60,247 nt of DNA, from positions 1 to 60,247 of the forward strand of contig JAHHIA010000021.1 of the NCBI GenBank assembly GCA_019359045.1. The letters run 5' to 3'. Shown one piece after another: positions 33,382-56,711 of the stretch (its first letter is position 1; each line of letters opens with the position of its first letter). This stretch comes from Scytolyngbya sp. HA4215-MV1. Lineage in GTDB: Bacteria > Cyanobacteriota > Cyanobacteriia > Leptolyngbyales > Leptolyngbyaceae. The notes beneath the pieces are model-generated. The model was not told the DNA's origin. It saw only the letters and a list, made by a program, of their open reading frames with translations, and made no database searches. Made by a program: the position numbers and the translations under genes.

Positions 33382-35532
33382 CTATTTCGAGATGGGAAGC
33401 AGTGGACTAGGGTTACCGCAATAAGTAATTAAGACCTGCTTCTTTGCACGGGTTGCTGCAACGTGGAGTAGGCATCGCTCTCCATCAACGAAACGGTCTT
33501 GAGATGCTTCATCTGCACAATGCTCTAGTCCTGCTTTAAGAGGGATAGTATCTGCATTTAAAGAAGGGAGAATCACATAGTTGAATTGCAGCCCTTTAAC
33601 GCGGTGCATCGTGCTAATCCTGATCCCATCTTCTAATGGATTGTCAGGCTGATTTCGCCGGATGCGCTTGACTGGAAATTCCATGCTCTTCAGGGCAGTT
33701 TCGTACTGCTCCATTAAAGGAGCCGTGCGGAATACTAGACAAGTCCCAGAAAGGGTTTGCTCTGTGGAGTGAATGCTAGACAGGAGTTGTTTCAGATAGG
33801 AAAGTTCATCATCAAATCGAGTAAAACCCTGAATGACTGGTTCATCCCCATGCATTAGTGATCGGTAGTCTTTTAGGGTGTCAGATCCGCCGTCTAAATC
33901 GTCAATGCTCATTCCTTGCAAAACTTGGGTTGCCCATCGGCGGATCTCATCTGTAGTGCGGTAATTTAAACGGAGTTTTCTAGATCGCCCTTGAATATTG
34001 ATTCCACAGCGGCTAAGGGTGGCAACTTTGCCGTAGATTCTTTGGTGAGGATCACCGACGATAAACAGATCATTAGGGGCTGGTTCTCCTGCGATCGCCC
34101 TTAATAGGGTAAACGCAGCCTCACTCATATCCTGTGCTTCGTCAACGATGACAGCCCGAAATGGTAAAGATGCCGCTCCCTTGGCTGCAATAATTTGGGC
34201 TGCATCTCGCATCGCATCTTCGGGTTCGCGCAGTCCCTTTTCTCGGAGCAGGTTCCGGTATTCTTCAAACACGCTCCAAATCATCTGACGCTGAGGGCGA
34301 CTGAGGCGAGTTCCTCGACCAGTACGACGAGCCACTAAATAGTCCCGTAGGGACTGACAGCCCTGATCTAGAACCACGGTTTGCCATTCTTCTTGATAGA
34401 AGCTTAAGGGCAATCCAAGTTCAACCGGGGCAGTCGTGTATGCTTGCTTCCACAGATCATCTGTTTCATCACTGTAAAGAATACGGGTTTCCACCCCCTC
34501 CTGCCGAAGAAATTCTGCAACCCAGGCATCCAGGTTGATGACTCGAATGCGTCGCATTTGATCTGTTGAACAGATGGATTTGAGGTTCGCTTCGATATCT
34601 ACGGCTAAATTGCGGGTAAAGGTGGTAAATAGAATGCGATCGTTTGGGTCAGTAAAGCGATTTTGAACGAGCCACTTTGCACGATGCATCGCAACCACCG
34701 TTTTGCCTGTACCAGCACCACCGAGAACGCGCACTGCTCCATTCCAATCTCGTTCGACAAGCTTACGTTGGGTGGGATGCAGAAATACCCGCCACTTTTC
34801 GAGGGGAGCCGCCAGCATCTCTTCCAGTTCTGTGTCGTCAGTGATCACCATGAAGCGGCTGAGGCTGTCGTCGTTCTGCAGCGCCTTTTCTAGATCCTCG
34901 GTATCAATAGGTTGAACGACTTTAGACTTCTCTAGCTGTTGCAATACATCACCCAGTTCATACCCTGCTGCTAGCATCAGTAGTGCGTCACTTGCCTCAC
35001 GGGGTAGGTGGGGTAATAGTTGTTCAACGGCATCATCTGTTTTGATCTGGCGTACAGCGGGAAGCAAGATTTCTGGAACGCCAAGCTTCATTAATTGTTT
35101 GTCTTCGACAGAGTCAAATTTTCCTGGTTGTTGAGGTTGCTCTTGATTAATTCGTTCTAACCGTTCAGTAGTAACCTCTACATCTTCAATATCAATAATC
35201 TGTAAAGCACCGGATACCTCATTGATGCGGCAAACCTTACGTCGCGCCCAAGTGTAAGCATCATCATGTTTATCTACCCACAATAGGATATAGACATTGC
35301 CAGAATCTGGTTTCAGGACGATCGCTCGATGGGCCTGGTCTACTCGTACTGATTTCATCCGCTTGTCATGGCTATCGCGAATTGACTCGTAATTTAAGCC
35401 AGGACGGGTTGGGTCTTGACGAAAGCGATTAATAAACTCTGAGACTTTGCTTTGGGCATTTCGGGGCAAACGACTGTAGGCATCAAAAAAGTCGTCGGAG
35501 ATTGCCAGCCGGAACGTATTTTGTAGCGCCAT
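33382..35532 (-). CDS. RelE-like/UvrD superfamily 1 helicase fusion
   Basis: 716 aa. Residues 1-105 look like a RelE/ParE-fold toxin (FFDAYSRLPRNAQSKVSEFI, SVRVDQAHRAIVL, YILLWVDKHDDAYTWA). The rest is a UvrD-like helicase: Walker A LGGAGTGKTVVA (~272), VDEAQDMS (~467), GDPHQRIYG, ISTMHRVKGLQF and VAATRAKKQV. The start immediately follows the stop of the 2102-aa helicase gene, and its ribosome site (AAGGAGGGG) lies within that gene, so the two are translationally coupled. The RelE-like part probably lost toxin activity and may bind ribosomes or nucleic acid. Confidence 0.88.
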   Translation of the reverse strand: MALQNTFRLAISDDFFDAYSRLPRNAQSKVSEFINRFRQDPTRPGLNYESIRDSHDKRMKSVRVDQAHRAIVLKPDSGNVYILLWVDKHDDAYTWARRKVCRINEVSGALQIIDIEDVEVTTERLERINQEQPQQPGKFDSVEDKQLMKLGVPEILLPAVRQIKTDDAVEQLLPHLPREASDALLMLAAGYELGDVLQQLEKSKVVQPIDTEDLEKALQNDDSLSRFMVITDDTELEEMLAAPLEKWRVFLHPTQRKLVERDWNGAVRVLGGAGTGKTVVAMHRAKWLVQNRFTDPNDRILFTTFTRNLAVDIEANLKSICSTDQMRRIRVINLDAWVAEFLRQEGVETRILYSDETDDLWKQAYTTAPVELGLPLSFYQEEWQTVVLDQGCQSLRDYLVARRTGRGTRLSRPQRQMIWSVFEEYRNLLREKGLREPEDAMRDAAQIIAAKGAASLPFRAVIVDEAQDMSEAAFTLLRAIAGEPAPNDLFIVGDPHQRIYGKVATLSRCGINIQGRSRKLRLNYRTTDEIRRWATQVLQGMSIDDLDGGSDTLKDYRSLMHGDEPVIQGFTRFDDELSYLKQLLSSIHSTEQTLSGTCLVFRTAPLMEQYETALKSMEFPVKRIRRNQPDNPLEDGIRISTMHRVKGLQFNYVILPSLNADTIPLKAGLEHCADEASQDRFVDGERCLLHVAATRAKKQVLITYCGNPSPLLPISK

Positions 35533-38500
35533 TTATACCCCTCCTTTCAGCGTCATGCCAATAACATCCATTGATTGCAGAAATGGCTCAATGTCCCAGG
35601 CTTTCCATCCTACTTCCGTAAACGTGACCTGATCCGATTCCGTTAGGGTAACGGCAATGCGATGTTCAATCCACGCTAGCTCCGCCATTGCAACGACTTG
35701 ATTGCGATTGCCCATGAGTTCATATCCAGCTTCTGGAATTGTCCAACGGTCCTGACGCATTTGCTCTAGGGCTGGTAGCAGTCGATCGTCAACCATTAAC
35801 TGACTCAACTGGTGCCATGCTTCATCTTCTCCGTTGGTTTGTTCAAGTGGGTAGCTTGTCACTTTGGGCAGCAAGGTTCTTGCTTGATCCACGCCTGATG
35901 TCGTGACTGCGTAGCAGTGAGAGAGAAACTGATAAAAATTAAGCAACCGCAATGCTTCAATCCAATTACTGCGAAGGAGCGATCGCTCGACTTGCGGAGT
36001 ATCGTCCAGTCGCAGCAGTACGAAGCTACCTGTTGGATCATGGGGATGTCGTTGGATATCTACCGCATTCCAAAGAGTCAGGATCAGAGATACGCTGATT
36101 TCTGTCCCAACCCATTTATTGGGTGGATCCCAGTAATTGATTGCATCCTGATTAGTATAGAAGGTTGCTTTTTCCAACCATTGATTTTGTGAAATGGTTG
36201 GGTTGGACTTCGCTTGAACAGCAGTTCTCAGCAGTGCCCAGCGTTGTCTCTCCTCAGCATTGGGATTGAACAGGTAAAGCATCAGCCATTCAAAACTATC
36301 CAACTCTTCCATCGGACGCAGAGGAAGGCATTGATATTGTTGGTAAACTTGCTGCATCACCGCGTGGGGCAGTGAGCAAGACAAACCGTTTGGGCGGTTA
36401 ACTGGATGATCAGGGTCTATCTGGGCAGTCACGTCATCCCAAGTCAGAGACCAGCACCAGAACTGCCCACTGCGAAGGATAGCAAGCCGTTGCTGAAAAT
36501 CTTCACTGAGACGCTCCTGGTGATACTCCCAACCATCTGTGAAGATGACAATGGGACGGCTGGGAATACGGCTAGAGGCTGGACGAATCACGAAGTCGGC
36601 ACGTGACGGGATCTCCACACCGTCCTGAGCATTAAGTAATACCTGCATTTCGATCGTCCAGGACACGTCACCGACTTTCAGGTAGTAGCCTGTCCGCCCA
36701 TTAACAATTTCCTTGCGGAGAATAGGGGATGCTCCCTCGTAAACCTTACCACTGTAGCGGCGGATGGCTTCAATAAAGCGTCGCTCCAACTCACTCTCGA
36801 AATTGCTGTTTAGCCGAATGGCGGATAACCCTTCTGATGTTTCCTCCAGGTCTGTCCAGTGCTTTTCAATGGCTGAAAGGAGACGTACAGCTGTAAGACG
36901 GCTGGTTTCATCCTGGTCAAAGCTGTTGCGATAGGCAAACAGGCAGTTATAACAACCGTCTTCGCAATCACATGCCCGCAGAACAGCGAGAGACCGGGCA
37001 AAGACATCACGCAGTTCTTCAGGGTTACGGATGAGTTGTCGGAGGTAGCCGGTTCCCCCTGGAATGCTATCGAACAGGTAGAGGAATGATTTGCGGAGGG
37101 AGGAATTGGGCTGAGGTTCTTCGCTAATAACAGTATGTAAGTGATCGACCTTCCCACCAAACTTGTGTTTTAAGCCAAGTTGGAGCGCAGCAATAAAGGA
37201 ATGTAACCCCTGATCCGTCCAGAAGTTTTCATCTGGCATGAGCAGTCGAATTGCTTCAGATTCAAATTCGCGGTAGAGGTACAAGACATCTAATGCTTTT
37301 GCCTGGTCGGGTTTGTCATGATACTGGCAGCTAATCATGTGATCCTTGGCTTTGTCGCCCCGCATCACTTTGCCGCAGCTTTTACAAACACGGAATCCCT
37401 GCGTGGTGAAGCGTTGTCCTGCCAATTCAACCGTTTCTCCGATCGATAGGGATTCTCCTAAATTCACCTCCCGAAAACTGGTACGGCAAATATATTCAAT
37501 CCCAAAGGGAAACTCTTTGTCTTTAATCAGAAATGTCTTTTCTCGAAACTCTGGCTTGAAATCGACCAGGAGATGGCGTTGGAAAAATGAGGTGCTGCGG
37601 TCTTCCCGATCGTCCCCGAATCGACTCTTGCGATCGCTCGTACTTGCCATCACCTGACGCAGCCTCAACATGCGGCGGAGTCGTCCCTGATCACTCCACA
37701 TGGAATCATTGCAGCGAGGACACACTTTTGTATGGGCTTCAGGTTGAATGCCGCGCACAGCATAATTACAGCTGCGGCAAATGCGCCACTCCTCTGGCTC
37801 TGAGAGTTTGAGATCAATTTGGTCGATTTTGACACGCCGCCCTTCTGCATAGAACACACCACTGGGCACGAGTTCTCGAATGGCTAATGCTCCGGGGCGC
37901 TCATAACTGAGGGTGAAAGTTTCGTACTTCTTGCCGTCTTCTCCTTCGGTTTTGGTCTTTTGTCGCCAAAGAATCGATCGCAGTGTCACGCCAGCTTCCG
38001 GGAAGGAATAGTTAGGTAGCAGGCCCTCATCGGTCAGGAAGTTAAGAATGTGTTTATCATTCAGTGTTCGCATCAATTCCCGGAAACCTGAACGTTCTCG
38101 CTCCAGATCTGTCAGTCGCTCCTGGTCCTGTAAGGCTTCTGGTTCTGCCTTCAGGTCTTTGATCTTCTTACCAATCGTTTTAATTTGGTTACTGAGGCGG
38201 GTGCGTTCTTTATTGACTGTCTCTAAGCGATTAAGGATGCTGTAAACGAGTCCACCCTCGTCATGCTCCCCTTTTTCCATAAACACTTTTAGTTCTGCCC
38301 GTGTTCGTTCATCTGTTTCAGTAAACAGGCGTAGAAACGTTTCTAACAATTCACTTTGGTGCTCTTGAATAAAGGTGAGCCAGTTGTAGGGAAAGCGAGC
38401 TTGATCCTGGCGCCCCACTGCATTCAACACATCACTGAGTTGGGTGGGAAATTCCCGTTTTGTGATGTCTGTGGCAACCCAGTTATCGAGACAAAAGGCA

Positions 38501-41500
38501 GTTAATTGGCGTTGCAGGATAGCGGATGCATCTAAATAGCATCCGGCAGATTCAACGCTGCCTGCTAGCATTCGGGTTGGATCAGAATAAAAGAACAGGT
38601 CATGGGGCGATCCATTTGCCACGACCCCAACCAGCGCATTGCCATCTTTTCTGCCTGCGCGACCAATTCGTTGCTGGAAATTGGCAGGAGCCGGAGGAAC
38701 GGAACAAAGCAGTACGGTCGAGAGATCGCCAATATTAATCCCCATCTCCAGGGTAGAAGTGGCAGATAGGAGGTTGGGATCACAGCGGCGATCGCCTTGA
38801 ATAAAGCGTTGCTCTAGCCATTCCCGGTTCGATCGAGTGAGTAGCCCTGTGTGTTCTGCTGCCATAATGCGCCGCACTTCGCCACTGCGATACAGTTGAC
38901 GGTAGTAGGCTAAGCCAGTGCGTGGATCGGGATGATAATGTCCCGTGCATCCCGGATTGAGGCAGGTCATGCCCTCTAACTGGGAGCGTTCGGCAGTCGC
39001 GGCAGTGATTTGGTGGCTACAGCGATCGCACACCAGCACAGTACCTTCTGTGGTTAAGTGAATGACCGACATCGGAATACCCCAGGCACGTCCATGCCCA
39101 CAGGGATGTACTTCTAATACGCCCGATTCTACTGCCGTGTTTAAGGCAAGCTCCAGCACGTCTTTTAGCTGGTCTTTGAGTAACAGGCTGATGTCAGCAA
39201 AAATTCGTCTTGCCCAGTTTTCACACCAGCTTTCTCCCTGCCCTTGCTTGATCACACGCTCAAAGCGATCGGCAGTTCCAACCGCATTCACCAGGAAGAT
39301 AGGGGCTGGAATACTGGGACCCATACTAGGCATATACAGCGGACGCTGCAACACGAAGGTATTGCCCTGATTGATATAGAGTTGGGTTGCGGGTTGCAAG
39401 ATTCCGCCCCGTTGCCGCAGATGGTGGAGCAGACCTAACAGAAATTGTTGAATGCGATCGCGGCTAACGTCACGCAAGGCATCGATCTCGTTGCTCAGTT
39501 TGAGGTGAAGGGTGGCGATCGCCTGCTCTATCTGGTCTGTGTCGAAGTGAGCAGCACAGGCTCCGCTGCGCTCTAGGGAGGGACCGACAGCAGAGCGGTG
39601 TCCGAACTGATTTACAATCTCCCAGGTTAATCGTTCATTAATAAGGGTAGGCAGGGAGGTATCGGTAGCAAGATCAAGGCGATCGCTGTGTAAAAACTGA
39701 TCCCATTCCCTGAGCCACTCCAAGTCGTTGGGAATAAAGGTGGCGACATAATTTCCCGCAGAGCCAAGCCGAGTGCGCCAATAGGAAGGGAATTGCTCGA
39801 CCAAGTCTTTTAAGGTAATACTGTTCTCGCTGGAAGCATTGGTGTGAGTGGTAACGGTATGGGCGATCGCCGTTCTGAGTGTAGTGCGGTAGGTACGTGC
39901 CCCGTAAAATCCGGCTCGGTGGGCAGCATCTTGAACAGAGTCTGAAAAGGTTAGCAGCTTTTTGTCGCGATTGAATGGGGTTGTGTAGAGGGTGCCAATC
40001 ATCGCACTGGTAAGGCTGGCAGCCTGTGCTCCCAGGATAGATAACCCATTGCTGCTGCCACAGAAGGGACAATCGCCACTAGAAACGGTTTTCTTTTGTC
40101 CGTTGTGGTTCTCCTCGTGCAGGATATCAGGGATGTGAACCCGAATTAAGTCAGCATTTCCGCAGGAGAGGCATTGCTCAACTCTGGGAGCATTGAGGGT
40201 CAGGCAATCTGGACAGAACTTGCGGATATCAGTTTCATCAGGATGGGCAGGAAAAATGAACGTTACCAGCGGTCTGTGTCCAAAATACTCCCGATAAAAG
40301 CGTTGCAAATCGTTAGTCACTAGCTTGTTGGAGCCTTGGGAGGGTTTGACTCCTCCCCAACCTGTGACACCGCAGTCACGGCAATGCATGACAGGTAAAG
40401 TTTTCTTGGCTTGCTCTGGTGTGAGATCGTCAGAGTAGAGCAATTTAGGGTGTGTTTCAACGGTAGCGACCATCCGCTTTAGCTCGCGGAACCAGACCTG
40501 AACCCGTAGATTAACCCAGGGCAAAACTAAAGACTGACCACTGGGGAGAACGATACGGCGGCGGGCGATCGCCACCAGGCTCAACAGGCTATCAAGTAGT
40601 AGGTGACAGTACTCTGTCTGATTTTTGGGGAGGTGAAGTCGGCGGCTGAGGCGATCAAGTAAGTCGTCGTAGGTCAGGGTTTCTTGCCCCAGCAGTCGGA
40701 TCAGGTTGTGGATAATCGGGAGGGTCTTGAGTTCTTCGCCCAATTGAACTCGCCAGTCGTCGGAAAAGGTTTCTCCCTCGACTAGTGAGGCAAGGAGTGA
40801 GGGCATATCTGGCAGCCAGAGGGCAGCTTGGGCATGGATATAAGATTCTGGAGTGGTATGGGAATCAGGATTAAGCTGGGCGATCGCCTCTAAACCTGGA
40901 ATGGGTAGAACATTGAGAAGTGCATCTTGCAAAAATTCGGCAGCGGTAATGCGGTCTTCTTGAATGAGTGCGCCTTCCAGGAAGGGTTCTTGGAAGATTG
41001 TAGTGGCGTAATCCAGCATGTCATCCTGGCTGGCACTACTACCGAGGGTGGCGGAGGTGCCGACACAGGCAAGATGATTGGCAGGGGTTTTAAGCCGATG
41101 TTTGAGTCGTCGCAATAGGCAGGCAAGGTCGGTTCCTTGTGCGCCATCGAAGGTATGGAACTCATCGACGACGATGTAGCGCAGGGTATCAGTTTGATTG
41201 TATTGCCAGAGTTTCTGGGTATCGGGTTGGACTAGCAGGTAGTCCAGCATTTTGTAGTTGGTGAGCAGGATATCAGGCGGTGACTCACGGATGATGCGCT
41301 TATCAGTGATGATTTTATGAGCGGTCATCATGGGGTTGGGGGTTTCGTCTTGATCGCCGATATAGAGCCCGGCGGTGATGCCGCCCAGGGAAGGAGTGTT
41401 GTGGATGAGTTGGGCGATCCGTTTTGCCTGATCCGTTGCCAGAGCATTCATGGGGTAGATCAAAATGGCTTTGATGCCCAAGGTTCCTTGCTGCTGGCGG

Positions 41501-41841
41501 CAGTGTTCTAGCAGGGGAAGCAAGAAACACTCGGTTTTACCCGAGCCGGTGCCTGTTGCGATGAGGGTGGATTGGTAGTAAGGGGGTGACAGTCGTCGGA
41601 AGGCACGTTCCTGATGTAGATGGGGCGTGAAACCGAGGGGGATTTCGCGGAAGGGAGCGGAGCCTGTGCCGGGGCGGAACGGTAAGCCGATGGAAATGTA
41701 GGGACCTCTACAGGTATTGTCGGGGTCAGCCAGAAAGCGATCGATGATCCCATCAAACCCTGGTGTGGTAGGGCGAAAGGTGGTGTGGAGGTAATCCGAG
41801 ACGCAGTTACGAACCTGGGTGGCAACGACAGAAGGGATCAT
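35533..41841 (-). CDS. Giant DEAD/DEAH helicase with DUF1998 and C-terminal nuclease-like domain
   Basis: 2102 aa. The superfamily 2 helicase core has IATGTGSGKTECFLLPLL (~94), VVDEFHTFDGAQGTD (DEFH, ~225), CVGTSATLGSS, and later LLTFSDSVQDAAHRAGF, ATSTLEMGINIG and QQRIGRAGR. Zinc-like cysteine pairs occur near residues 480-600. The DUF1998/MZB region ends with FDSIPGGTGYL and CDCEDGCYNCLFAYR (~1630). Residues ~1690-1800 (SRADFVIRP, then FTDGWEYHQER and WSLTWDDV) look like a PD-(D/E)XK nuclease. This order resembles DruE of Druantia; a fused DrmA-DrmB (DISARM) role is an alternative. First gene of an operon with the RelE-UvrD gene. Confidence 0.87.
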   Translation of the reverse strand: MIPSVVATQVRNCVSDYLHTTFRPTTPGFDGIIDRFLADPDNTCRGPYISIGLPFRPGTGSAPFREIPLGFTPHLHQERAFRRLSPPYYQSTLIATGTGSGKTECFLLPLLEHCRQQQGTLGIKAILIYPMNALATDQAKRIAQLIHNTPSLGGITAGLYIGDQDETPNPMMTAHKIITDKRIIRESPPDILLTNYKMLDYLLVQPDTQKLWQYNQTDTLRYIVVDEFHTFDGAQGTDLACLLRRLKHRLKTPANHLACVGTSATLGSSASQDDMLDYATTIFQEPFLEGALIQEDRITAAEFLQDALLNVLPIPGLEAIAQLNPDSHTTPESYIHAQAALWLPDMPSLLASLVEGETFSDDWRVQLGEELKTLPIIHNLIRLLGQETLTYDDLLDRLSRRLHLPKNQTEYCHLLLDSLLSLVAIARRRIVLPSGQSLVLPWVNLRVQVWFRELKRMVATVETHPKLLYSDDLTPEQAKKTLPVMHCRDCGVTGWGGVKPSQGSNKLVTNDLQRFYREYFGHRPLVTFIFPAHPDETDIRKFCPDCLTLNAPRVEQCLSCGNADLIRVHIPDILHEENHNGQKKTVSSGDCPFCGSSNGLSILGAQAASLTSAMIGTLYTTPFNRDKKLLTFSDSVQDAAHRAGFYGARTYRTTLRTAIAHTVTTHTNASSENSITLKDLVEQFPSYWRTRLGSAGNYVATFIPNDLEWLREWDQFLHSDRLDLATDTSLPTLINERLTWEIVNQFGHRSAVGPSLERSGACAAHFDTDQIEQAIATLHLKLSNEIDALRDVSRDRIQQFLLGLLHHLRQRGGILQPATQLYINQGNTFVLQRPLYMPSMGPSIPAPIFLVNAVGTADRFERVIKQGQGESWCENWARRIFADISLLLKDQLKDVLELALNTAVESGVLEVHPCGHGRAWGIPMSVIHLTTEGTVLVCDRCSHQITAATAERSQLEGMTCLNPGCTGHYHPDPRTGLAYYRQLYRSGEVRRIMAAEHTGLLTRSNREWLEQRFIQGDRRCDPNLLSATSTLEMGINIGDLSTVLLCSVPPAPANFQQRIGRAGRKDGNALVGVVANGSPHDLFFYSDPTRMLAGSVESAGCYLDASAILQRQLTAFCLDNWVATDITKREFPTQLSDVLNAVGRQDQARFPYNWLTFIQEHQSELLETFLRLFTETDERTRAELKVFMEKGEHDEGGLVYSILNRLETVNKERTRLSNQIKTIGKKIKDLKAEPEALQDQERLTDLERERSGFRELMRTLNDKHILNFLTDEGLLPNYSFPEAGVTLRSILWRQKTKTEGEDGKKYETFTLSYERPGALAIRELVPSGVFYAEGRRVKIDQIDLKLSEPEEWRICRSCNYAVRGIQPEAHTKVCPRCNDSMWSDQGRLRRMLRLRQVMASTSDRKSRFGDDREDRSTSFFQRHLLVDFKPEFREKTFLIKDKEFPFGIEYICRTSFREVNLGESLSIGETVELAGQRFTTQGFRVCKSCGKVMRGDKAKDHMISCQYHDKPDQAKALDVLYLYREFESEAIRLLMPDENFWTDQGLHSFIAALQLGLKHKFGGKVDHLHTVISEEPQPNSSLRKSFLYLFDSIPGGTGYLRQLIRNPEELRDVFARSLAVLRACDCEDGCYNCLFAYRNSFDQDETSRLTAVRLLSAIEKHWTDLEETSEGLSAIRLNSNFESELERRFIEAIRRYSGKVYEGASPILRKEIVNGRTGYYLKVGDVSWTIEMQVLLNAQDGVEIPSRADFVIRPASSRIPSRPIVIFTDGWEYHQERLSEDFQQRLAILRSGQFWCWSLTWDDVTAQIDPDHPVNRPNGLSCSLPHAVMQQVYQQYQCLPLRPMEELDSFEWLMLYLFNPNAEERQRWALLRTAVQAKSNPTISQNQWLEKATFYTNQDAINYWDPPNKWVGTEISVSLILTLWNAVDIQRHPHDPTGSFVLLRLDDTPQVERSLLRSNWIEALRLLNFYQFLSHCYAVTTSGVDQARTLLPKVTSYPLEQTNGEDEAWHQLSQLMVDDRLLPALEQMRQDRWTIPEAGYELMGNRNQVVAMAELAWIEHRIAVTLTESDQVTFTEVGWKAWDIEPFLQSMDVIGMTLKGGV

Positions 41842-42104: not shown

Positions 42105-42830
42105 GTGCCATCAACACGACCGAACCCCAAGCAAGCCCGAGAATTGCTCGCTCAATTAACCCAACAAGCACAGATAGTTGAACCAAAGCTCGCTCAGAAG
42201 CTTGCTCTCTTAACAAAGTGGATCAAGGACAAGACGAATGGGCTACTGATGAGTAAGCCCTATGTTTTAGATCTTCTTGGAGAAGTGATTTTGGATGCTA
42301 GGCTTTGGCTCATTCTCAAGCCTTTGGGCCAGCAGGACAGACAGAAGCTTTACTTGAGCGAGAATTTTTCAGTTGCACAGCAATATTGGTTAGAGGTTCT
42401 ATTCCCTCGATGGTTTAACAACGAAGATCCAAAGTTTCCTAACTGGCGGCGGGAAGTAATGAGCGGAAATTTCAAGAGGGATGATGAGCAGGTACTGAGA
42501 AGCATTTCGAGAGAGATAGAGCAACAAGGGGGAAGTTCTCTATGGAAACACTTGCTTGATCTGTCAATGGCAACAGATTTGTTGGCGTCAGGGCAAAAGG
42601 AGACTGCATTGTGTGTTCAGTTGACAACCAATGCAGAGGTTTATCTTGATGACAAGAAACAGCGTTGGGGGGAGACTTTGACGTACTGGAGCATTGAGCG
42701 GGGATTATTCCTTAGCTATAACCCTGTTGGAAAAGCCTTTGTTTCCCAGCTCGTCACAGTTATTTTGAACTATAGTGATACGCCAACAGCCCCTTGTTAT
42801 ACTGTTATTACAGCTTTTGAAGGGTTTTAA
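42105..42830 (+). CDS. Unknown protein paired with ImmA/IrrE protease
   Basis: 241 aa, not recognised. The protein is helical with tryptophan-rich stretches (WLEVLFPRWFNNEDPKFPNW near residue 95) and YLDDKKQRWGETLTYWSIER toward the end. The start is a GTG at 42105 without a clear ribosome site, so the N terminus is uncertain. Twelve bases separate it from the protease gene, so they form an operon. It may be a substrate, sensor or antitoxin-like partner of the protease. Confidence 0.7.
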   Translation: MPSTRPNPKQARELLAQLTQQAQIVEPKLAQKLALLTKWIKDKTNGLLMSKPYVLDLLGEVILDARLWLILKPLGQQDRQKLYLSENFSVAQQYWLEVLFPRWFNNEDPKFPNWRREVMSGNFKRDDEQVLRSISREIEQQGGSSLWKHLLDLSMATDLLASGQKETALCVQLTTNAEVYLDDKKQRWGETLTYWSIERGLFLSYNPVGKAFVSQLVTVILNYSDTPTAPCYTVITAFEGF

Positions 42831-42842
42831 CATCGGGAAGCC

Positions 42843-44018
42843 ATGACTAGCGAAGATAACATTTTTAGTTTTGGCGACAGTTCTGACCCTATGCAACAAG
42901 CTAGGGAAGCTTTGCGTGCTGTTCAACAGTATCAGCGGGATTGGCAAGAGGAAGGAGTCAATCGGGTTTATAAGTATTTTGATGATGTTGAAGGAGATTG
43001 GCTTGAAGAATTTGAGCCTATCTCTGTAAATGCTTCAGCAGAACATGGATCTAGAGTTACAGTATCTGCCATTTGTGAACGACTTAGATCGCTAGGATTG
43101 TCTACTTCCTTTATTAAAAATGTGGCTTTCCCATCCTGGTGGAAGAGTGAGCTTGAGCCTGATGAGGGGATAATCTTCCAACTTTTAGATTCTTTGTCTC
43201 GTCGCTTGTTTCTGACAGTTGATACCTCTGAAAATTCAGATCTATCGCTAGCATTTCTACCAATTCCTGCGCCGAAGTTTAAACTACGGAAAAACCAAGA
43301 AGATCCGAAGCTTTTTAGTTATTTAGCGAGAAGTGTTGCGAATGCTGTTTCATCAACGGTTGATCGCCCTTACTCTCCTATTCCTTGTGATGCACTTATC
43401 ATTAGGAAATCCATACTTCAGAATCATTCATGTGTAAGCTTGGACAGCTTGCTTAATTTTTGTTGGCAAGCAGGTCTACCAGTTGTTCACTTTGACAAGA
43501 AACCTGATGGTCGAGTTAAAGTGGACGGTTTAGTTGTCATCACTAATAACCGACCTATTATCATCATTGGTTCTTCTTGGAAATATTCTGCGTGGCTCCT
43601 TTTTATCCTGGCTCATGAGTTAGGACATATTGCCCAAGGACATCTTCAAGATGGCATTCTAGTGGATGAATCCTTTCAGCATGGCGTGAATGATGATGAA
43701 GAGGAGGATGCCAATCAATTTGCAGCTCAGCTTTTGTTTGGAGATGTCCCGCTTCAATGGGCTGCAAATCTTAATAAACAGCGCTTGCTGGTAAAGGCTA
43801 GGCGTTTAAGTGAAGAGCACAATCTTGATCCTGGTGCACTCATACTTAACTATGGTTGGCAGACGAAGAATTGGGGATGTGCTGTAGCAGCCCTGAGCTT
43901 GCTGGAACCTAACGCTAATGCTCCGGCTCAAATTAATGCCTACTACCAACGTCACTTAGTCAGCATTGATGAGGATAGTCGGGATTACCTTCAACAAGTG
44001 AATGTTTTAGCTGCTTGA
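42843..44018 (+). CDS. ImmA/IrrE-family zinc metallopeptidase
   Basis: 391 aa. The C-terminal half carries the zincin motif LAHELGHIAQGH (HExxH, ~residue 261) and the third ligand region DDEEEDANQFAAQLLFGD, as in ImmA/IrrE (COG2856). ImmA cleaves phage-type repressors in integrative elements. The N-terminal ~200 residues carry no recognised helix-turn-helix; SAICERLRSLGLSTSFIKNV may be a degenerate one. Second gene of a two-gene unit between the giant helicase and the RecQ-UvrD fusion, on the opposite strand to both. Confidence 0.88.
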   Translation: MTSEDNIFSFGDSSDPMQQAREALRAVQQYQRDWQEEGVNRVYKYFDDVEGDWLEEFEPISVNASAEHGSRVTVSAICERLRSLGLSTSFIKNVAFPSWWKSELEPDEGIIFQLLDSLSRRLFLTVDTSENSDLSLAFLPIPAPKFKLRKNQEDPKLFSYLARSVANAVSSTVDRPYSPIPCDALIIRKSILQNHSCVSLDSLLNFCWQAGLPVVHFDKKPDGRVKVDGLVVITNNRPIIIIGSSWKYSAWLLFILAHELGHIAQGHLQDGILVDESFQHGVNDDEEEDANQFAAQLLFGDVPLQWAANLNKQRLLVKARRLSEEHNLDPGALILNYGWQTKNWGCAVAALSLLEPNANAPAQINAYYQRHLVSIDEDSRDYLQQVNVLAA

Positions 44019-44113: not shown

Positions 44114-47100
44114 TTAACGACAAACCCGGATTTGGGGAACAACTAAATACCACTCTTCTTTAACTTCACCTGTTACCTCATCAATATCCAAGTGTTGATA
44201 GATATGCCGTACAGTAACCTCACCGGGTTGCCATTCAAATTGGTCTGGGCGAAGCCCTTGGTTACTCAGAACTTGGTTGGCGTGTTTTGATAAAGCCCCA
44301 ATTTCTTCATCTTGCTCAGTCCAGATTGTCCAGCCATCTCCGTATCGATTACATTTCAGTTGTAAGTTGCTTCCTTCTCTTAATTTTTGAATAATGGCTT
44401 GTTTTGATTTTGTAGCTGGATATCCTAAATTGATATCGCCTTTTTGTTGATCTCCTTTTCTTTCTCCAAATGGGCTAAGGTCAGCGTAGTAAATGAAGCT
44501 GGGTAAATTAATCTGCTCTACTGATTTCTGTTTTACTTTGAGCTGCATCTCTTTTATGAATTGGTTATTGCGAGTTGAAGTTAGAACTAACTCCTCTTTA
44601 GCTCTTGTCATCGCAACGTAAAGCAATCTACGTTTTTCTTGTATATGATCTGTATTGGCAGAGAACTTATCTGTTAGTAGAATTACTTTACGAAATTCAA
44701 GTCCTTTGGCTCCATGACAGCTAGTTACTAAAACTGCCGCCTTGTCAATGGAAAGATCGGGACTTTCGTTAAATTCGTAGATAGCGGTAATAATTTCATT
44801 GGTGCTGATTTCATCAGCTAGATCTGAGCCATAGCCTCTTTCCTCATCTAAATCGATCGCAATCTTTAGGAGGGTTTTGACTGTAGGCTCATTTAATCCA
44901 TGATGTGCTTTTTCAAAGAAGCTTTCAAAGCGTTCTTTGACAGAGTGTTCGGGTGGGATAATTAAACCGGAAGCATCCTTAAGAGCGTTTAAGAGACGTT
45001 GAGTAACATGATTGCGAACTAGCTTAATTTCGCCTCCCTTTAAAGTATGAGTGGGAATGTTGGCTAATCGATCGAGCAAGGCTCTAATGTCTTTGAGTTC
45101 ATCCCATTCCCATGACAGAATTGCAATCTCGCAGGGACGTGTTCCTTCTGCAATCCATTGTTTGACCTGTGTGGTGATCCAGATGGCTTGTTCGTTTGAA
45201 GTTAAAAATTGAAGTGCTTGGACTGGCACTCCTGATTGACCAATCCGGGCTGCATCAATTTGGACTTGTTCCTGTAGGTCTCGTTTACAGCGATCGGGAT
45301 TGTTCTGAATGAGATAGTTTGAGGCTTGGATGATGGATTCAGTAGAGCGATAGTTTTCGGTTAATAGAAATCGTTTTGCCTTATACTCCGCTTGAAACTG
45401 CAAGATATATTTAGGGTTGGTTCCTCTGAATTCATAAATATTTTGGTCATCATCACCAATCACACAAAGATTGATCTGAACCGATCGCGCTTGATCTTCA
45501 GAATCACCAAACCCTGCAATGAGCTGAACCAGGCGATATTCCTGTTCTGCAACATCCTGGTATTCATCCACAAAGATGTATTCTGTGTTGCCTAACAGCC
45601 TCACTCGACGCATTTGGCTATCTTCATCAGCCAGGATACCTTCATTTCCTTTGTCCAAAAGGTTACAGGCTTCTTCGAGGAGTTTTTGGAATCTATGTTC
45701 TGTACTTTGCTGTTTCTGGGATTTGGTGTCTGATTCCTCAATGGTTCGACCCAGTAGGGACAGCGCCAGCCCATGAAAGGTATAGACTCTCAGCCGCGAT
45801 GCTGAAGTTCCCACCAAATCTTTAAGCCGTATGCGGAGTTCTCGAACGGCATTGCGGTTGTAAGCCAGTACCAGAATGCGATCGGGGTTGACTCGTTTGA
45901 CTTTGATCAGGTAGGCAATTCGATGAACGATGGCGCGTGTTTTGCCAGAGCCTGGACCCGCAATGACTGCGATCGCCGGGTCGTCTGCTTCGACAATAGC
46001 GGTTTGGGCTGGGTTGAGCGAACCCATAATCCGGTTATAGTCTTCCTGGGTAACGGGACGCTTGCAAGCGTCTGTATGGAGGTCTGGATATTTATTAGCG
46101 AATTCCTCGAAAGGGAGTTGAAAGTAATCTGCGACAAGCTGTTGGCGGGCAGCCTGATCCTCACCTAATCGACCGTATTCCACCATTAAGTGAGTGCGAC
46201 GGGCTTGCTCAGAATAGTGGTGTTGCACCTCTGGATACTTACGGTTAATGGTGGTGATATTGGCTCCTTTATGCACTCGGACTTTGAATGCCTGGCTGAA
46301 AAGGAGTAGCCCCTCCGTTAATCGTAAAATTTTCCTTTGATGTAACCAAAGAAGGGCTGTTTTTAACTGTTTTGCGTCGAGTTCTGTAGGATTTCGCTGA
46401 GCGCAGATCGTTTCCAGTAGGGTTTCAAACTCACATTCAACGATAAGGCGGGCACCGGAGGTTTTCTCTAGTTTCTGGTCAATCTCTGTATAGATTGCGT
46501 TAATCAACCGACGACAGGAGTCCTGGTGGTTCTCTAGTCTTTCGATAACTTTTGATAACGGTCCTGCATCAGCTTCAATGGGTTGAATTTGGATAATTCC
46601 TGAACTGATGTTTTTGAGTTTGAGCCAGTGTAATGTTCTCCAACTCTCAACAATGTCTAACAAAATGGATGCGCTCAGTTTTTGCTGCCCACCGGGATCG
46701 AGGCGAGTTGCTAGCCCTCGTAAGTTGACTTGTAGAATTTGGCGATCGCCTACCAGCTCTAGAAACTCTTCGAGCAACGTTTGCTCTAGCTGACACCGCC
46801 GCTCATATGCAGTTCGAGCATCCCCCGAAACGGCTTTAGTAATGACTAACGTGAGGGGAATTTGGGAGGAACAAACTCCAGCACGTCGAAGTTCACGAAT
46901 CCGTTCAGATAATTCTGTTACTGGGATTCCAGATTCATCACTCAAGCGTTCCAGGGATACTCGCTCACCATCGGTCTGGTGATGGGCTTTGATCAGATGC
47001 ATTCCATAGATTAACTTTTCAAACTGTTGTAGCTGTTCTTTGGATAAATTGCGCCCTTGAACATACGCTAGAAAAGTTTGCCAGGATTTTGTCGGGTTGG

Positions 47101-49225
47101 ACTGGCACAGATGATATTGAATTGTTGTGGAAAGGTTTTCTGCCCGTTCCATTAGTCCAAAGTTTTCTAGATGGTAAAGGGCAACCTGAATTTTGGTGTT
47201 TCGCTGATCTGCTTCAGTGGCAAAAGCTTCGTCTAAGTCACTGCTCTGATAAATCTCCTCAGCCGTTATCCAGAACCAGTCTTCAGTCACTTGCTCTGAT
47301 CGCTGTTGTAATAGTTTTCGGATACTTCGGACGGCTGTAAAGATATTTCGTAGATCAGTGGCAGTCAATTGATTGAGGCTCTTCAAGAAGAAGATGGTTT
47401 CTGCATCTTTGCCATCAAAAAGTAAGATGCAAGTTGCGGGTTCACCATCTCGTCCTGCCCGTCCTGCTTCCTGAATATAGGCTTCCAGACTACTACTGAG
47501 CGTATGGTGGATGACGGCTCTGACATCTTTGCGATTGATGCCCATGCCAAAGGCACAGGTGGCAGTAATGATGTTTAAACTGCCTTGCTTGAATTCTTGC
47601 AGAATGAGGGCTTTTTGCGCTTTGTCAATTTTTCCGTGATAGTGCTTCGCCTCCAGCCCTTCTTGTTCTAACAAAGCCGCTAACCGTTCGGCATCTTTGC
47701 GGGTGGTTGTGTAAACCAGAGCGCACCCTCCCTGGTCTAGGGCATTTCTGACGGCTTCAAAAATCGGTTTGTTTTTATCGTCGGAGGCTGGAATCACTTG
47801 ATAATCCAGGTTATTCCGACTCATATTGCTAGCTGGCATGAGTTGAGGTTTCAAGCCATGCTCAGTAAATAACTCGCAAATGTCTTGTTGAACTTTAACG
47901 GTTGCGGTTGCAGTCAGGAGCGCAAGACGAGGGAGCGATCGCCCCTGTTCGGTGTAAAGCTCTTTGATAAATTTGGGGATGTAACGGTAATCGGGGCGGA
48001 AGTCATGTCCCCATTGCGTAATACAGTGAGCTTCATCAATGACCCAGAGAACGGGCGGGCGTTCTTTCAGGAGAGTCCGGATGCTGAGGGAGCGAAGCTG
48101 TTCGGGGCTGATGTAGAGTAAGCCTTTTTGCCCGTTGCGTAATTCTTCGAGCCGTTGTGAACGCTCTGGGGGAGGCAGGTTGCTATTGATGAAGGTAGAA
48201 AAGCTCAACCCTGTGGCTTCTAAATCAGCGACTTGATCTTCCATCAAGGCTTGGAGGGGTGAGATACAGACGGTTAGCCCCCATTGCCGCCGATAATACA
48301 TCAAGGCAGGCAATTGATAGCACAGGGATTTTCCGCCACCTGTTGGCATTAAGATCAAAGGATTGTGCCCAGAAATAATTGCCCGAACGGCTTCTTCTTG
48401 GGGATGTCTAAATTTTTCAATATCAAATTCCTTGAGATAGGGCTGATAGGTAAACCCTTCATCCTCAACAGGTAGAAGGGCATCTAGCACTATTTGGAAA
48501 TCGGGGAGATGATTGAGCCAGATTGAAGGAGCTTGTTTACTGTTTGTTTGGCAGCGCTGATAATTCCAACTTAAAAGTGCAGCTAGAATTAGGCGTTTGT
48601 CAAAACTAAGCGTATGAGGTTCTAGCCACACTTCTGTGAGGTAGGAATAATTCATTCCCCAGGTTGCATCAGTGGGAAGATCTGTCCAACTGAGGGAGGA
48701 AGTGATGTCCCCTTGAAGTTCTTGAAAGAATAGCCGATACGCTCGATCGCCGGGTTCGTTGCCACAGGTTAGTAGCCAAATATAAACCTGTCGCAGGGTT
48801 TCTGGTTTCTGTAGAAGGGTTTGAAGAATGCGTTCTAGTAAGAAACGGGTTGCTCTGGCATCTTCAAGGGGATCGTTGCTGGCGTAATCGCTTAATTTGT
48901 AGTCTTTTTGCAGTTTGTGGGAGGGTTCCAGGGGAAAGGCAAGAACGGATAGTTCTAAGGTATCGAGCAGGAGCAAATCGCTGAGGTCAGACCATTGACG
49001 AATGAGATAGCGGCGATCGAAACGGCGGATGTTATGACCACAGAGCAGCCCACCTGTTTGTTGAAGATGAAGGAGCTGTTGTTGAATTTCGATCGCCCGA
49101 TCGGGTTGAACTTTGAGAGTATGGGTTGGGGATAGGAGTCCAAAGCAATGAATTTGCTCCTCAGCATTCACTTCCAAATCTAAATAACTGTAGGTATCTA
49201 AAGTACCATTCAGGTTAGAGTCCAT
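44114..49225 (-). CDS. DEDD exonuclease-RecQ-UvrD triple fusion
   Basis: 1703 aa. Residues ~10-175 form a DnaQ-like 3'-5' exonuclease (YLDLEVN, CGHNIRRFDRRYL, LDTLELSVLAFP, DPLEDARAT). Residues ~280-620 are RecQ: LMPTGGGKSLCYQLPALM (~298), WVIDEAHCITQWGHDFRPDY (~397), TCAFGMGINRKDVR, QEAGRAGRDGE. After a helical middle, residues ~1080-1560 are UvrD/PcrA: IAGPGSGKTRAI (~1092), VDEYQDV (~1222), GDDDQNIYEFRG, YVAMTRAKEEL. Two opposite types of motor and a nuclease in one chain suggest processing of stalled or foreign DNA. Single gene in the helicase island. Confidence 0.9.
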   Translation of the reverse strand: MDSNLNGTLDTYSYLDLEVNAEEQIHCFGLLSPTHTLKVQPDRAIEIQQQLLHLQQTGGLLCGHNIRRFDRRYLIRQWSDLSDLLLLDTLELSVLAFPLEPSHKLQKDYKLSDYASNDPLEDARATRFLLERILQTLLQKPETLRQVYIWLLTCGNEPGDRAYRLFFQELQGDITSSLSWTDLPTDATWGMNYSYLTEVWLEPHTLSFDKRLILAALLSWNYQRCQTNSKQAPSIWLNHLPDFQIVLDALLPVEDEGFTYQPYLKEFDIEKFRHPQEEAVRAIISGHNPLILMPTGGGKSLCYQLPALMYYRRQWGLTVCISPLQALMEDQVADLEATGLSFSTFINSNLPPPERSQRLEELRNGQKGLLYISPEQLRSLSIRTLLKERPPVLWVIDEAHCITQWGHDFRPDYRYIPKFIKELYTEQGRSLPRLALLTATATVKVQQDICELFTEHGLKPQLMPASNMSRNNLDYQVIPASDDKNKPIFEAVRNALDQGGCALVYTTTRKDAERLAALLEQEGLEAKHYHGKIDKAQKALILQEFKQGSLNIITATCAFGMGINRKDVRAVIHHTLSSSLEAYIQEAGRAGRDGEPATCILLFDGKDAETIFFLKSLNQLTATDLRNIFTAVRSIRKLLQQRSEQVTEDWFWITAEEIYQSSDLDEAFATEADQRNTKIQVALYHLENFGLMERAENLSTTIQYHLCQSNPTKSWQTFLAYVQGRNLSKEQLQQFEKLIYGMHLIKAHHQTDGERVSLERLSDESGIPVTELSERIRELRRAGVCSSQIPLTLVITKAVSGDARTAYERRCQLEQTLLEEFLELVGDRQILQVNLRGLATRLDPGGQQKLSASILLDIVESWRTLHWLKLKNISSGIIQIQPIEADAGPLSKVIERLENHQDSCRRLINAIYTEIDQKLEKTSGARLIVECEFETLLETICAQRNPTELDAKQLKTALLWLHQRKILRLTEGLLLFSQAFKVRVHKGANITTINRKYPEVQHHYSEQARRTHLMVEYGRLGEDQAARQQLVADYFQLPFEEFANKYPDLHTDACKRPVTQEDYNRIMGSLNPAQTAIVEADDPAIAVIAGPGSGKTRAIVHRIAYLIKVKRVNPDRILVLAYNRNAVRELRIRLKDLVGTSASRLRVYTFHGLALSLLGRTIEESDTKSQKQQSTEHRFQKLLEEACNLLDKGNEGILADEDSQMRRVRLLGNTEYIFVDEYQDVAEQEYRLVQLIAGFGDSEDQARSVQINLCVIGDDDQNIYEFRGTNPKYILQFQAEYKAKRFLLTENYRSTESIIQASNYLIQNNPDRCKRDLQEQVQIDAARIGQSGVPVQALQFLTSNEQAIWITTQVKQWIAEGTRPCEIAILSWEWDELKDIRALLDRLANIPTHTLKGGEIKLVRNHVTQRLLNALKDASGLIIPPEHSVKERFESFFEKAHHGLNEPTVKTLLKIAIDLDEERGYGSDLADEISTNEIITAIYEFNESPDLSIDKAAVLVTSCHGAKGLEFRKVILLTDKFSANTDHIQEKRRLLYVAMTRAKEELVLTSTRNNQFIKEMQLKVKQKSVEQINLPSFIYYADLSPFGERKGDQQKGDINLGYPATKSKQAIIQKLREGSNLQLKCNRYGDGWTIWTEQDEEIGALSKHANQVLSNQGLRPDQFEWQPGEVTVRHIYQHLDIDEVTGEVKEEWYLVVPQIRVCR

Positions 49226-49298: not shown

Positions 49299-49463
49299 TC
49301 ATGGTATTAACTCGCTGAGTACCAAAATTCGCAGTTCACCAACGCGCTTTAGGGCTGTGTCATTGGTCAAAAATGCCTGACAACCTGTGACCCTCGCCGT
49401 TGCTATTTGTAGGGCATCGGGGAGTTTTAGGTTGTACTGCACCCGTAGTTCTGCATTATGCTC
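49299..49463 (-). pseudogene. 5'-truncated PIN-domain toxin remnant
   Basis: The minus strand reads QYNLKLPDALQIATARVTGC then QAFLTNDTALKRVGELRILV, ending in TGA at 49299-49301. This is the last third of a VapC-type PIN RNase (the LPDALQIATA and FLTND elements). The N-terminal half, including the first catalytic acid, is missing and no start is in place. It begins within the stop of the antitoxin-like gene, so a deletion removed the front of the toxin. Confidence 0.7.
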
Positions 49464-49701
49464 TCAACGACTGTTCTCGATCGTCCCATTCATCGCGCTG
49501 ATGGTTGACCCAGGCTTGGGCATCTTCGCCACCCAGTAAATTAGGGGCAATTCCTTCCAGATCTTGCCAGGATCGGCTGGGTTTGGATGTAATCACGGCA
49601 CGGGTTTGGAGTTGGGTTATTAAGTGTCCCATCACCTGCATTTGTTCTTCTGGGGTTAGTTGGTCAACCTGATTTAGGATTTGCTGAAGTAATGAACTCA
49701 T
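49456..49701 (-). CDS. Small antitoxin-like protein
   Basis: 81 aa from ATG 49701, chosen because GGAGG lies just upstream and the N-terminal extension to 49791 is not protein-like. It starts MSSLLQQILNQVDQLTPEEQ, a pattern common in cyanobacterial antitoxin-like proteins that pair with PIN toxins, and ends ...WDDREQSLRA. The adjacent toxin is a truncated remnant, so this antitoxin is now an orphan. Confidence 0.65.
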   Translation of the reverse strand: MSSLLQQILNQVDQLTPEEQMQVMGHLITQLQTRAVITSKPSRSWQDLEGIAPNLLGGEDAQAWVNHQRDEWDDREQSLRA

Positions 49702-49830
49702 AGTCCTCCGAGGGTGCGATCGCATCAATGGGTAATTATAGTTTGCGCTCAAAGAATGCCCAGGCGGTGCGGTAGTCGCCCAACCGATCACTCTTTTCTA
49801 AGGAAGTTGGATAGCGATCGCGATTGAGCT

Positions 49831-50169
49831 TTAAGACACGGCATATTCAGTGAGTTTGCGGCGCTCTGGAGACTTGAAGGCAAGAACAATATGATCTTTG
49901 GGAATGCCTGCGGATTCTAGCTCGTAAGCGATGCCGTCTTCAGTACCGTCGTGTTGAATCCAGACTTTATTGTCAATGATATCCAGGTGGAGGAAGGGAC
50001 CATAGATGCGTTTTTGCTTCTGCCAACCTGTTTCCAGGAGCAAATAATGGTCCTTCTCGCGATCGAAGATAAGCTCTTGTTGAATACCTTCTTCTCCGCT
50101 TATGTAGTTAGCGTATTCTTGCAGAATGGTTTCGATAATCTGGCGGTATTGAGCTTTTAAGGAATCCAT
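49831..50169 (-). CDS. xisI: XisI family protein
   Basis: 112 aa. The opening MDSLKAQYRQIIETILQEYA and VWIQHDGTEDGIAYELESAG followed by IPKDHIVLAFK are hallmarks of XisI, one of the factors linked to excision of the fdxN element in heterocystous cyanobacteria. XisH/XisI pairs are scattered widely in cyanobacterial genomes and behave like a two-gene mobile module. It overlaps xisH by 13 bp and is the last gene of the long methyltransferase operon. Confidence 0.92.
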   Translation of the reverse strand: MDSLKAQYRQIIETILQEYANYISGEEGIQQELIFDREKDHYLLLETGWQKQKRIYGPFLHLDIIDNKVWIQHDGTEDGIAYELESAGIPKDHIVLAFKSPERRKLTEYAVS

Positions 50170-50573
50170 TGAATAATTTCCTCCTGTTCAGGGTTAAAGG
50201 TTATTAAACGAATCACACTGTTTTGAAGAAGAATTTCGCCGATTTCCTCTTCAAAAACCGATTGATAAACGGCATCGCTGACAGCGAGATAGAGCTTACG
50301 CTCTGGATCGTAGCGTGCGAGTACCTGGGTGTACAAAACGAACTGACCTACGGCATCTTCCAGATCTTTGATGTCTGATGCACGGGTAAAGCTCTTAATT
50401 TCAACTGCAATTTGCTCTGTACCCCGTTCGGCAGCAATCAAGCGTTCTGCGCCTAGGTCGATGTACAGCTTCTTACGAGTCAGACGGAGTGTCAGAGGAT
50501 CGTGGGTGATCGTCCAGCCGTCTTTGATTAGGGCAGTTTTAACGGTGTCGTGGTAGATGTCTTTGGCTGGCAT
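50157..50573 (-). CDS. xisH: XisH family protein (PD-(D/E)XK-fold)
   Basis: 138 aa. MPAKDIYHDTVKTALIKDGW, then IDLGAERLIAAERG, IAVEIKSF and LEDAVGQFVLY follow XisH closely; the E and K of the nuclease-like core (EIKSF) are present. Its start lies 3 bases after the stop of the methyltransferase, so it is co-transcribed. It pairs with xisI. The role in this operon is unknown; it could be a separate module that inserted there. Confidence 0.93.
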   Translation of the reverse strand: MPAKDIYHDTVKTALIKDGWTITHDPLTLRLTRKKLYIDLGAERLIAAERGTEQIAVEIKSFTRASDIKDLEDAVGQFVLYTQVLARYDPERKLYLAVSDAVYQSVFEEEIGEILLQNSVIRLITFNPEQEEIIQWIP

Positions 50574-56021: not shown

Positions 56022-56030
56022 GGCAACAAC

Positions 56031-56384
56031 CTATCTTTGATTCGTTAAGTCAGTTAGAACTTGAACAATCAGAGGACGTAATGCAGGCAAATTCTGTTGA
56101 GAGGTATCCCAAAGAACCTGCAAATTGACTCCGAAATACTGGTGAATGACCTTATCTCGCATTCCAGTCATTCCTTTCCAGGGAATATCAGGATAGCGAT
56201 CGCGTAATTCATTGGGAATATTTTTGGCGGCTTCCCCAATAACCTCAAACGCCCTGATGAGAGCAAAAATAGTTTTCTGGTCGTTTTCAAATGTTGTAAA
56301 TTCCATGCCTTGAGTGAATTGAGCCGCGATATCAATGGTCTCCAAAATATCTTGCAGATAGTCCTCAACGTTGCGTGGGGTCAT
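56031..56384 (-). CDS. HepT-like HEPN RNase toxin (DUF86)
   Basis: 117 aa. The catalytic motif of HEPN toxins, R-x4-H-x-Y, is intact as [10 protein letters not shown] near residue 80, together with [20 protein letters not shown]. Such proteins cut tRNA or mRNA and are silenced by a partner nucleotidyltransferase. Its start overlaps the MNT gene by 4 bases (ATGA), a coupled toxin-antitoxin pair placed inside the helicase-methyltransferase operon, 9 bp before the methyltransferase. Confidence 0.93.
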
Positions 56385-56707: not shown

Positions 56708-56711
56708 CTGG

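Follow-up and report, generated by a model that had tools for sequence, protein, structure and literature searches.

A probable plasmid of the cyanobacterium Scytolyngbya sp. HA4215-MV1 carries a predicted four-gene ARMADA type II locus with nested genes and an in-frame palindrome-DUF559 cassette

The 60,247-bp contig JAHHIA010000021.1 of Scytolyngbya sp. HA4215-MV1 (hereafter the window) carries two adjoining genes that we are highly confident encode ArmC and ArmD of ARMADA type II, an anti-phage system made up of four genes. An initial annotation had described the pair as a 2102-residue DEAD/DUF1998 protein followed by a UvrD helicase, and had proposed a defense operon distinct from Druantia that would represent a separate, new two-gene type. 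The coordinates, the domains and the abutment of the two reading frames were all borne out: the ATG of ArmD directly follows the stop codon of ArmC (0-bp gap), ArmC has the Pfam domains DEAD, Helicase_C and MZB (MrfA zinc-binding, DUF1998-type), and ArmD has the N-terminal and C-terminal UvrD domains. The idea of a defense operon other than Druantia also stood, whereas that of a new type did not, since the pairing of ArmC and ArmD has already been published as part of ARMADA type II. The pair is also an incomplete extent of the locus: two more genes of the same system, ArmA and ArmB, lie upstream (50577-59636) on the same strand in the order A-B-C-D, with other genes nested among them.

ARMADA type II was described in 2025 from E. 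coli NCTC 12900 and ATCC 8739 (Bell et al., PMC12458937). According to the accessible portions of that paper, ArmA is BrxHII-like, ArmB is PglX-like, ArmC is YprA-like and ends in a Vsr-type nuclease, and ArmD combines a RelE-like N terminus with a GajB-like helicase; the gene order is stated to be strict, the E. coli operon protects against phage, the defense is non-abortive and all four genes are required. The comparison operon was an E. coli ARMADA II locus (L194), reached via a relative (L152); of 5426 E. coli genomes, 526 contain a close match to the ArmD gene of that relative. Identity to the E. coli proteins was 48% for ArmA (939 aligned positions), 49% for ArmB (1568), 39% for ArmC (2044) and 46% for ArmD (701). 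The window shares with ARMADA type II the four homologous genes, their order and strand, a RelE-UvrD protein as the fourth member and the eight residues whose mutation the published work reports. At these positions the E. coli proteins have the expected letters, and the window keeps every one of the eight (ArmA K135 and D235; ArmB G590 and N1171; ArmC K102 and D226; ArmD K277 and D464). The PADLOC scan, which covered seven window proteins (for ArmD, the best 25 of 44 PADLOC rows), matched ArmA to DrmD/BrxHII and ArmD to GajB-like models, and Pfam domains found in ArmB at E<=1e-3 were DUF559, Eco57I and N6_Mtase only. In a tree of 24 rows that used 14 named loci, the window ArmC fell among 22 ArmC rows including that of E. 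coli (support 100/99), and E. coli DruE III and a remote cyanobacterial helicase (G169) stood apart on long branches under a midpoint root. One ArmC in the tree pairs with a Desulfobacula copy, and because of this pairing its contig is likely mis-binned.

The notion of an independent two-gene type, in which a DruE-like protein and a RelE-UvrD protein act without ArmA or ArmB, draws on the contiguity of ArmC and ArmD some 8.7 kb away from ArmA and ArmB, and on many named loci that show these two genes alone, though most of those views are limited by a contig end or by the 10-kb span displayed. Set against it are the ArmA and ArmB homologs upstream in the right order and strand, the compact ABCD operons of relatives and the need of the E. 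coli system for four genes, as stated in the available part of the report (PMC12458937), so that we regard a stand-alone pair as very improbable. Among the relatives, the four genes run uninterrupted in the order A-B-C-D on a plasmid of Pseudanabaena PCC 7367 (60-70% identity, with ArmB in two pieces of 62 and 69%) and on an Aulosira plasmid; a Nostoc plasmid has one small gene between ArmB and ArmC, one further locus (L099) is a compact ABCD operon, and in two others (L100, L101) the ARMADA II order is C-D-A-B, not A-B-C-D.

The coupling of ArmC and ArmD was examined in named ArmD loci from many phyla, the best 80 of 550, of which 69 were counted after exclusion of 11 with less than 1.5 kb upstream. 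The pair is conserved: ArmC lay upstream on the same strand in 60 of the 69, within 300 bp in 59. The gap was measured in 62 loci, 20 of which showed a 4-bp overlap of the two genes. Solitary occurrence in core chromosomal positions was not seen for most of the ArmD loci surveyed; nine of the 69 had no upstream ArmC match, and three of these look solitary. By eye, and by the starts of the open reading frames, ArmD stands apparently alone among housekeeping-like genes in L155, L166 and L181, and in L189 it directly follows a DrmB-like gene without ArmC. ArmD relatives (E<=1e-40) were present in 14 of 386 cyanobacterial genomes; 13 of the 14 also had a match to ArmC (E<=1e-30), 10 to ArmB and 14 to ArmA, some matches being short or elsewhere in the genome. 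Among 72,556 plasmid records, 43 matched ArmD at E<=1e-60, and the phage collection held no ArmD relative at E<=1e-30.

A Druantia variant, with a RelE-UvrD protein in place of the usual DruE partners, is suggested by the best PADLOC models of ArmC, which are DruE1 and DruE3. By blastp, ArmC matches the E. coli ArmC over its full length (37% over 2148 positions), whereas it aligns with E. coli DruE III in only two segments (34% over 215 and 22% over 721); ArmC adjoins ArmD and, on its other side, an open reading frame at 42105 that has no PADLOC match; and ArmA and ArmB are present. We therefore give this variant next to no credence. Druantia type III (DruE-DruH), like the window, has a large YprA-family helicase whose C terminus is of nuclease type, but in the accessible description its nuclease is of the PLD type and here the end of the protein is PD-(D/E)xK-like, and the similarity to DruE III is low and partial. 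DruH, DruA-D and DruM-F-G were not found among the direct neighbors of ArmC: none of them is in the best 25 of 44 PADLOC rows for ArmD, and the open reading frame at 42105 matched no PADLOC family. The SNF2 helicase and PglX-like methyltransferase of DISARM class 1 (DrmD, DrmMI, DrmA, DrmB, DrmC) are relatives of ArmA and ArmB; there the YprA helicase (DrmA) and the DUF1998 module (DrmB) are separate, whereas here they form one protein, and a PLD nuclease gene was not seen among the window proteins scanned. GajB of Gabija is likewise a UvrD-type helicase, but ArmD carries the N-terminal RelE domain, and GajA is not beside ArmD, whose gene neighbors are ArmC on one side and ParB on the other.

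That the N terminus of ArmD has a RelE fold, as had been claimed, was supported by structure modeling. An AlphaFold 2 (AF2) model of residues 1-121, built from 40 sequences, reached a predicted local distance difference test (pLDDT) score of 92.7, and a Foldseek search with this model placed RelE, YoeB, YafQ and HigB structures at the top (best E 2.2e-5; 27 chains at E<=1e-3). The VIA structure search returned the same toxin families with Z up to 10.5. In sequence searches, the domain of the window had only matches below the Pfam cut-off (ParE_like, E 0.052; NucS_N, E 0.048) and nothing relevant among PDB sequences; ParE_like was matched by 19 of 40 aligned relatives (best 1.1e-5). The alignment of 40 RelE domains, which takes in 39 of the 80 named loci, showed E49, R63, R69, W95 and Q111 to be invariant, with H89 and Y93 in 39 of the 40. 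Because the conserved E49, R69 and H89 resemble the catalytic set of YoeB/RelE, we lean slightly toward predicting that this domain is an active RNase.

The nuclease-like C terminus claimed for ArmC was supported by invariant residues and not by fold, as the fold search gave no significant match. E1686, D1749, D1769, G1770, H1774, D1781 and R1785 were identical in all 46 aligned ArmC members (an alignment that uses 45 of 48 loci with ArmC longer than 2050 residues), and the restriction-nuclease family MTES_1575 weakly matched five of the 46 (best E 7.1e-4), the window ArmC not being among them. In the fold search TnsA came first at E 0.055; in the VIA search of the C terminus, Mediator and mitoribosome chains were at the top (Z 5.1 and 5.0), some restriction nucleases had Z<=4.9 and Vsr was not listed. 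A profile of this region gave five matches among PDB sequences, led by a designed repeat protein (E 1.4e-6) and then armadillo/zyg-11 proteins, which were judged spurious, and direct comparison of part of the region with the DUF559 insert of ArmB found no similarity. The residues are as expected for a PD-(D/E)xK nuclease, which is accordingly a prediction from conserved positions, and we think it rather likely that the nuclease is active. Overall, candidate catalytic residues can be named in two effector domains, RelE and the C-terminal nuclease.

Several points weigh against an intact and fully typed system. The assignment to type II is drawn from the set of genes present and their resemblance to those of E. 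coli type II, because the tree left out ARMADA type I sequences and has long outgroup branches and a midpoint root; the activity of the window copy is a prediction; and the Vsr-type nuclease fold was not confirmed by the fold searches. The role of the RelE domain is likewise predicted, the mutated sites given in the accessible part of PMC12458937 not including this domain. Approximately 170 extra residues in ArmB (the DUF559 cassette) and further repeat insertions in ArmA and ArmB might impair the proteins, and since the ArmB-ArmC junction of ~8.7 kb includes two opposite-strand genes, the four Arm genes do not form one simple transcript. A decayed ARMADA locus, inactivated by insertions, would account for the repeats in ArmA and ArmB, the cassette in ArmB and the large insert between ArmB and ArmC, and broken copies do occur among relatives (ArmB in G282; ArmC and ArmD in G051). 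On the other hand, the four Arm reading frames of the window are open, the eight tested residues are intact, and the insertions are in frame at places where relatives vary or have short loops, which makes decay unlikely, if clearly more plausible than the two alternatives above.

We consider it probable that the A-D set restricts DNA. In the proposed mechanism, ArmA, as a translocase, and ArmB, as an N6-type methyltransferase, would inspect or modify DNA as in DISARM class 1 and BREX, and host DNA would thereby be spared (self/non-self discrimination). DruE of Druantia III loads on 3' single-stranded DNA and cleaves in an assembly-dependent manner, according to the accessible part of a 2026 preprint (PMC13192584); by analogy, ArmC may load via its YprA core on phage DNA that contains single-stranded DNA and may cut it with the PD-(D/E)xK-like C-terminal domain. 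ArmD, co-translated with ArmC and probably its binding partner, would act as a second translocase whose RelE domain may cleave RNA, either mRNA or transcripts carried by the DNA that is being processed. Since the contig as a whole (1-60247) encodes ParA, ParB and a tyrosine recombinase, it is probably a plasmid; its ends share no exact terminal overlap longer than 10 bp, that is, no such sign of circularity. ARMADA II, studied by experiment in E. coli, gains a likely plasmid-borne cyanobacterial member, which differs from E. coli ARMADA II in its nested MntA-HepT genes, its XisH-XisI and RecQ-UvrD genes, its in-frame palindromes, its DUF559 cassette and its likely plasmid location.

Table 1. 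Coordinates of the Arm genes, their domains and insertions, and the genes nested among them (positions in the window)
Feature	Position	Strand	Remarks
ArmD, RelE-fold domain fused to UvrD/GajB-like SF1 helicase	33382-35532	-	716 aa; Walker A K277, Walker B D464
RelE-fold domain of ArmD, about residues 1-115	35170-35532	-	AF2 model, structure matches, conserved residues
ArmC, YprA-family SF2 helicase with MZB/DUF1998-type zinc domain and C-terminal nuclease-like region	35533-41841	-	2102 aa; Walker A K102, Walker B D226
ArmC C-terminal region, residues 1668-2102: predicted PD-(D/E)xK (Vsr-like) nuclease, then a less conserved part	35536-36840	-	E1686, D1749, D1769, H1774
241-aa open reading frame without family (no PADLOC family), just before the M78 gene	42105-42830	+	
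M78 (ImmA/IrrE-type) metallopeptidase, ArmB-ArmC junction	42843-44018	+	
RecQ-UvrD fusion helicase, between ArmB and ArmC	44114-49225	-	1703 aa
111-aa open reading frame without Pfam match	49456-49791	-	
XisI family protein	49831-50169	-	
XisH family protein, directly after ArmB	50157-50573	-	
ArmB, PglX/type IIG-like DNA methyltransferase with in-frame repeats and DUF559 cassette	50577-56021	-	GxG at G590, NPPW N1171
Cassette in ArmB	52954-53459	-	open, in frame; absent from 8 of 8 compared ArmB relatives
Cassette, full element	52954-53048	-	
Cassette, DUF559 nuclease domain	53049-53363	-	
Cassette, partial element	53406-53459	-	
In-frame palindromic element, ArmB residues 666-710	53894-54026	-	absent from 8 of 8 relatives, one with a different short insert
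In-frame palindromic element, ArmB residues 138-168	55519-55610	-	loop varying among relatives
HepT-like ribonuclease, partner of the MntA-like gene	56031-56384	-	
MntA-like nucleotidyltransferase, between ArmA and ArmB	56381-56740	-	
ArmA, BrxHII/DrmD-like SNF2-family helicase with one in-frame palindromic element	56712-59636	-	K135, D235
In-frame palindromic element, ArmA residues 394-426	58366-58457	-	loop varying among relatives

The most novel part of the findings is the in-frame palindrome-DUF559 cassette of ArmB together with similar insertions in other genes. A 92-bp palindromic element occurs, whole or partial, once in ArmA and at four places in ArmB, and is translated in frame. The cassette occupies ArmB residues 855-1023, and these extra residues are missing in all eight compared relatives. 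An intein was considered for the insert and rejected: no Hint protein-splicing domain was found in Pfam (E<=1e-3), and DUF559 with the repeat-coded peptides fills most of it. Searching the whole genome for the element gave 12 matches, corresponding to nine places, of which five are in ArmA and ArmB, two lie beside DUF559 in a type ISP restriction gene and two are elsewhere. The element was matched (E<=1e-4) in 84 of 386 cyanobacterial genomes, often partially, and two of 19 cyanobacterial element loci outside the window genome hold DUF559.

Contig C10 of the same genome also has the arrangement palindrome-DUF559-palindrome in frame in the type ISP restriction gene, and genomes G101 and G062 have it in a type IIG gene. 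The 386 genomes yielded 143 listed DUF559 relatives (E<=1e-20), 59 of them in stop-to-stop frames of at least 290 residues and 84 in frames of at most 225, with none between (two rows may share a frame). When the 15 of the 59 embedded rows most similar to the DUF559 domain of ArmB were examined, nine hosts had DNA methyltransferase or type ISP Pfam domains, two had DUF1156 (presumably an adenine-methylase family), three were PriA and one had no assigned host domain. Four type ISP, two type IIG and three PriA cases are each alike around the insert, so the 15 hosts represent fewer than 15 events. DUF559 domains in frame within DNA-methyltransferase and restriction genes were seen at L053/L207, L211/L237, L229/L236, L235 and L238-L243, most with adjoining palindromic elements. 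The PriA helicase genes with in-frame DUF559 (L244, L251, L258; family f31) come from small genomes of the same phylum and another class.

Sites free of the insert were found for two host genes, type IIG and ArmB. In three genomes (G048, G151 and G085) the type IIG gene has no counterpart to roughly residues 445-669 of the filled copy, and 30 to 33 bases separate the two halves that match it; identity to the filled copy in G048 is 92% for the first half and 59% for the second. Another type IIG copy of G151 has a Y1 (IS200-like) transposase in frame at the same site, which may be read as RAYT-like. A Y1 transposase with tandem repeat-coded peptides, in frame at this type IIG site that holds the DUF559 cassette in other genomes, is located at about 2722-3861 of L277.

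The elements that flank DUF559 in ArmB, in the type ISP and type IIG genes and in further hosts, together with the insert-free sites (three type IIG relatives and eight of ArmB) and the Y1 transposase at the same site, tip the balance modestly toward the view that the DUF559 of ArmB belongs to a group of mobile palindrome-DUF559-palindrome cassettes that insert in frame, favor DNA methyltransferase and restriction genes, and have their host translated through them. Mobility is deduced here from sequence comparison, and same-site cases within one kind of host gene may be one event each. A tight link between elements and in-frame insertion is opposed by the following. By blastn, elements were detected beside 11 of 13 embedded DUF559 cases compared and none beside L244 and L258; two more DUF559 genes of the window genome (L209, L210) have no elements; and free-standing DUF559 genes have palindromic elements on both sides in L250 and on one side in L249, which fits a unit lying outside genes too.

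Small palindromes spread through genomes are known as repetitive extragenic palindromic (REP) elements with REP-associated tyrosine transposases (RAYTs) and as Rickettsia palindromic elements, which have an associated nuclease or transposase or lie in frame within genes. Here, in contrast, palindromes stand on either side of a DUF559 nuclease, together forming a unit in frame inside DNA-methyltransferase genes, and there is a somewhat better than even chance that such cassettes parallel REP/RAYT as a nuclease counterpart living in defense modification genes, perhaps giving them a second nuclease. If mobile, the cassette would be an unusual genetic element living inside restriction and defense methyltransferases, and its empty and filled sites would make its movement directly testable. 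Among the papers listed in a literature search, none linked DUF559 to palindromes, to in-frame insertion or to homing endonucleases, which does not establish absence from print.

The genes nested in the ArmA-ArmB and ArmB-ArmC junctions (Table 1) are, we infer, passengers or co-selected defense modules and not parts of ARMADA. The modules themselves are new here, and the ArmB-ArmC junction is often occupied elsewhere too. In G282, the best-matching ARMADA of the 14 genomes, this junction measures 437 bp, and the sequence to either side of it can be aligned with the window; in Pseudanabaena PCC 7367 it measures 206 bp. Among the 28 named loci showing both genes, to which the count is limited, 14 had no more than 209 bp between match ends and the other 14 had 760 bp or more. 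ArmB is not seen in 19 of the 44 loci that have ArmC and ~10 kb upstream, reflecting a longer gap, absence or divergence. Pfam matched a family in 16 of 20 chosen open reading frames upstream of ArmC and none in four, ArmB being out of view in several of these loci; the families were GmrSD, Schlafen AlbA and AbiE proteins (three each) and, as single cases, HipA, protein kinase, AAA_21, dynamin, TerB, small GTPase and helicase. The ArmA-ArmB and ArmB-ArmC junctions can, on this evidence, take up toxin-antitoxin and defense genes. For the N terminus (260 residues) of the RecQ-UvrD fusion, a DnaQ-like exonuclease was considered and found no support in Pfam (E<=0.01) or PDB sequences. G048 has a relative of this fusion, 53-55% identical, on a contig that carries no Arm genes, and a UvrD half was seen on two contig ends of G374.

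Further defense-like genes are present on the same contig at 7752-9725, 11816-13909, 22742-26596 and 30424-31467, their types being a Schlafen-group-3 helicase, an AlbA-NB-ARC protein, a large 1284-residue protein and a YhcG/DUF1016 nuclease.

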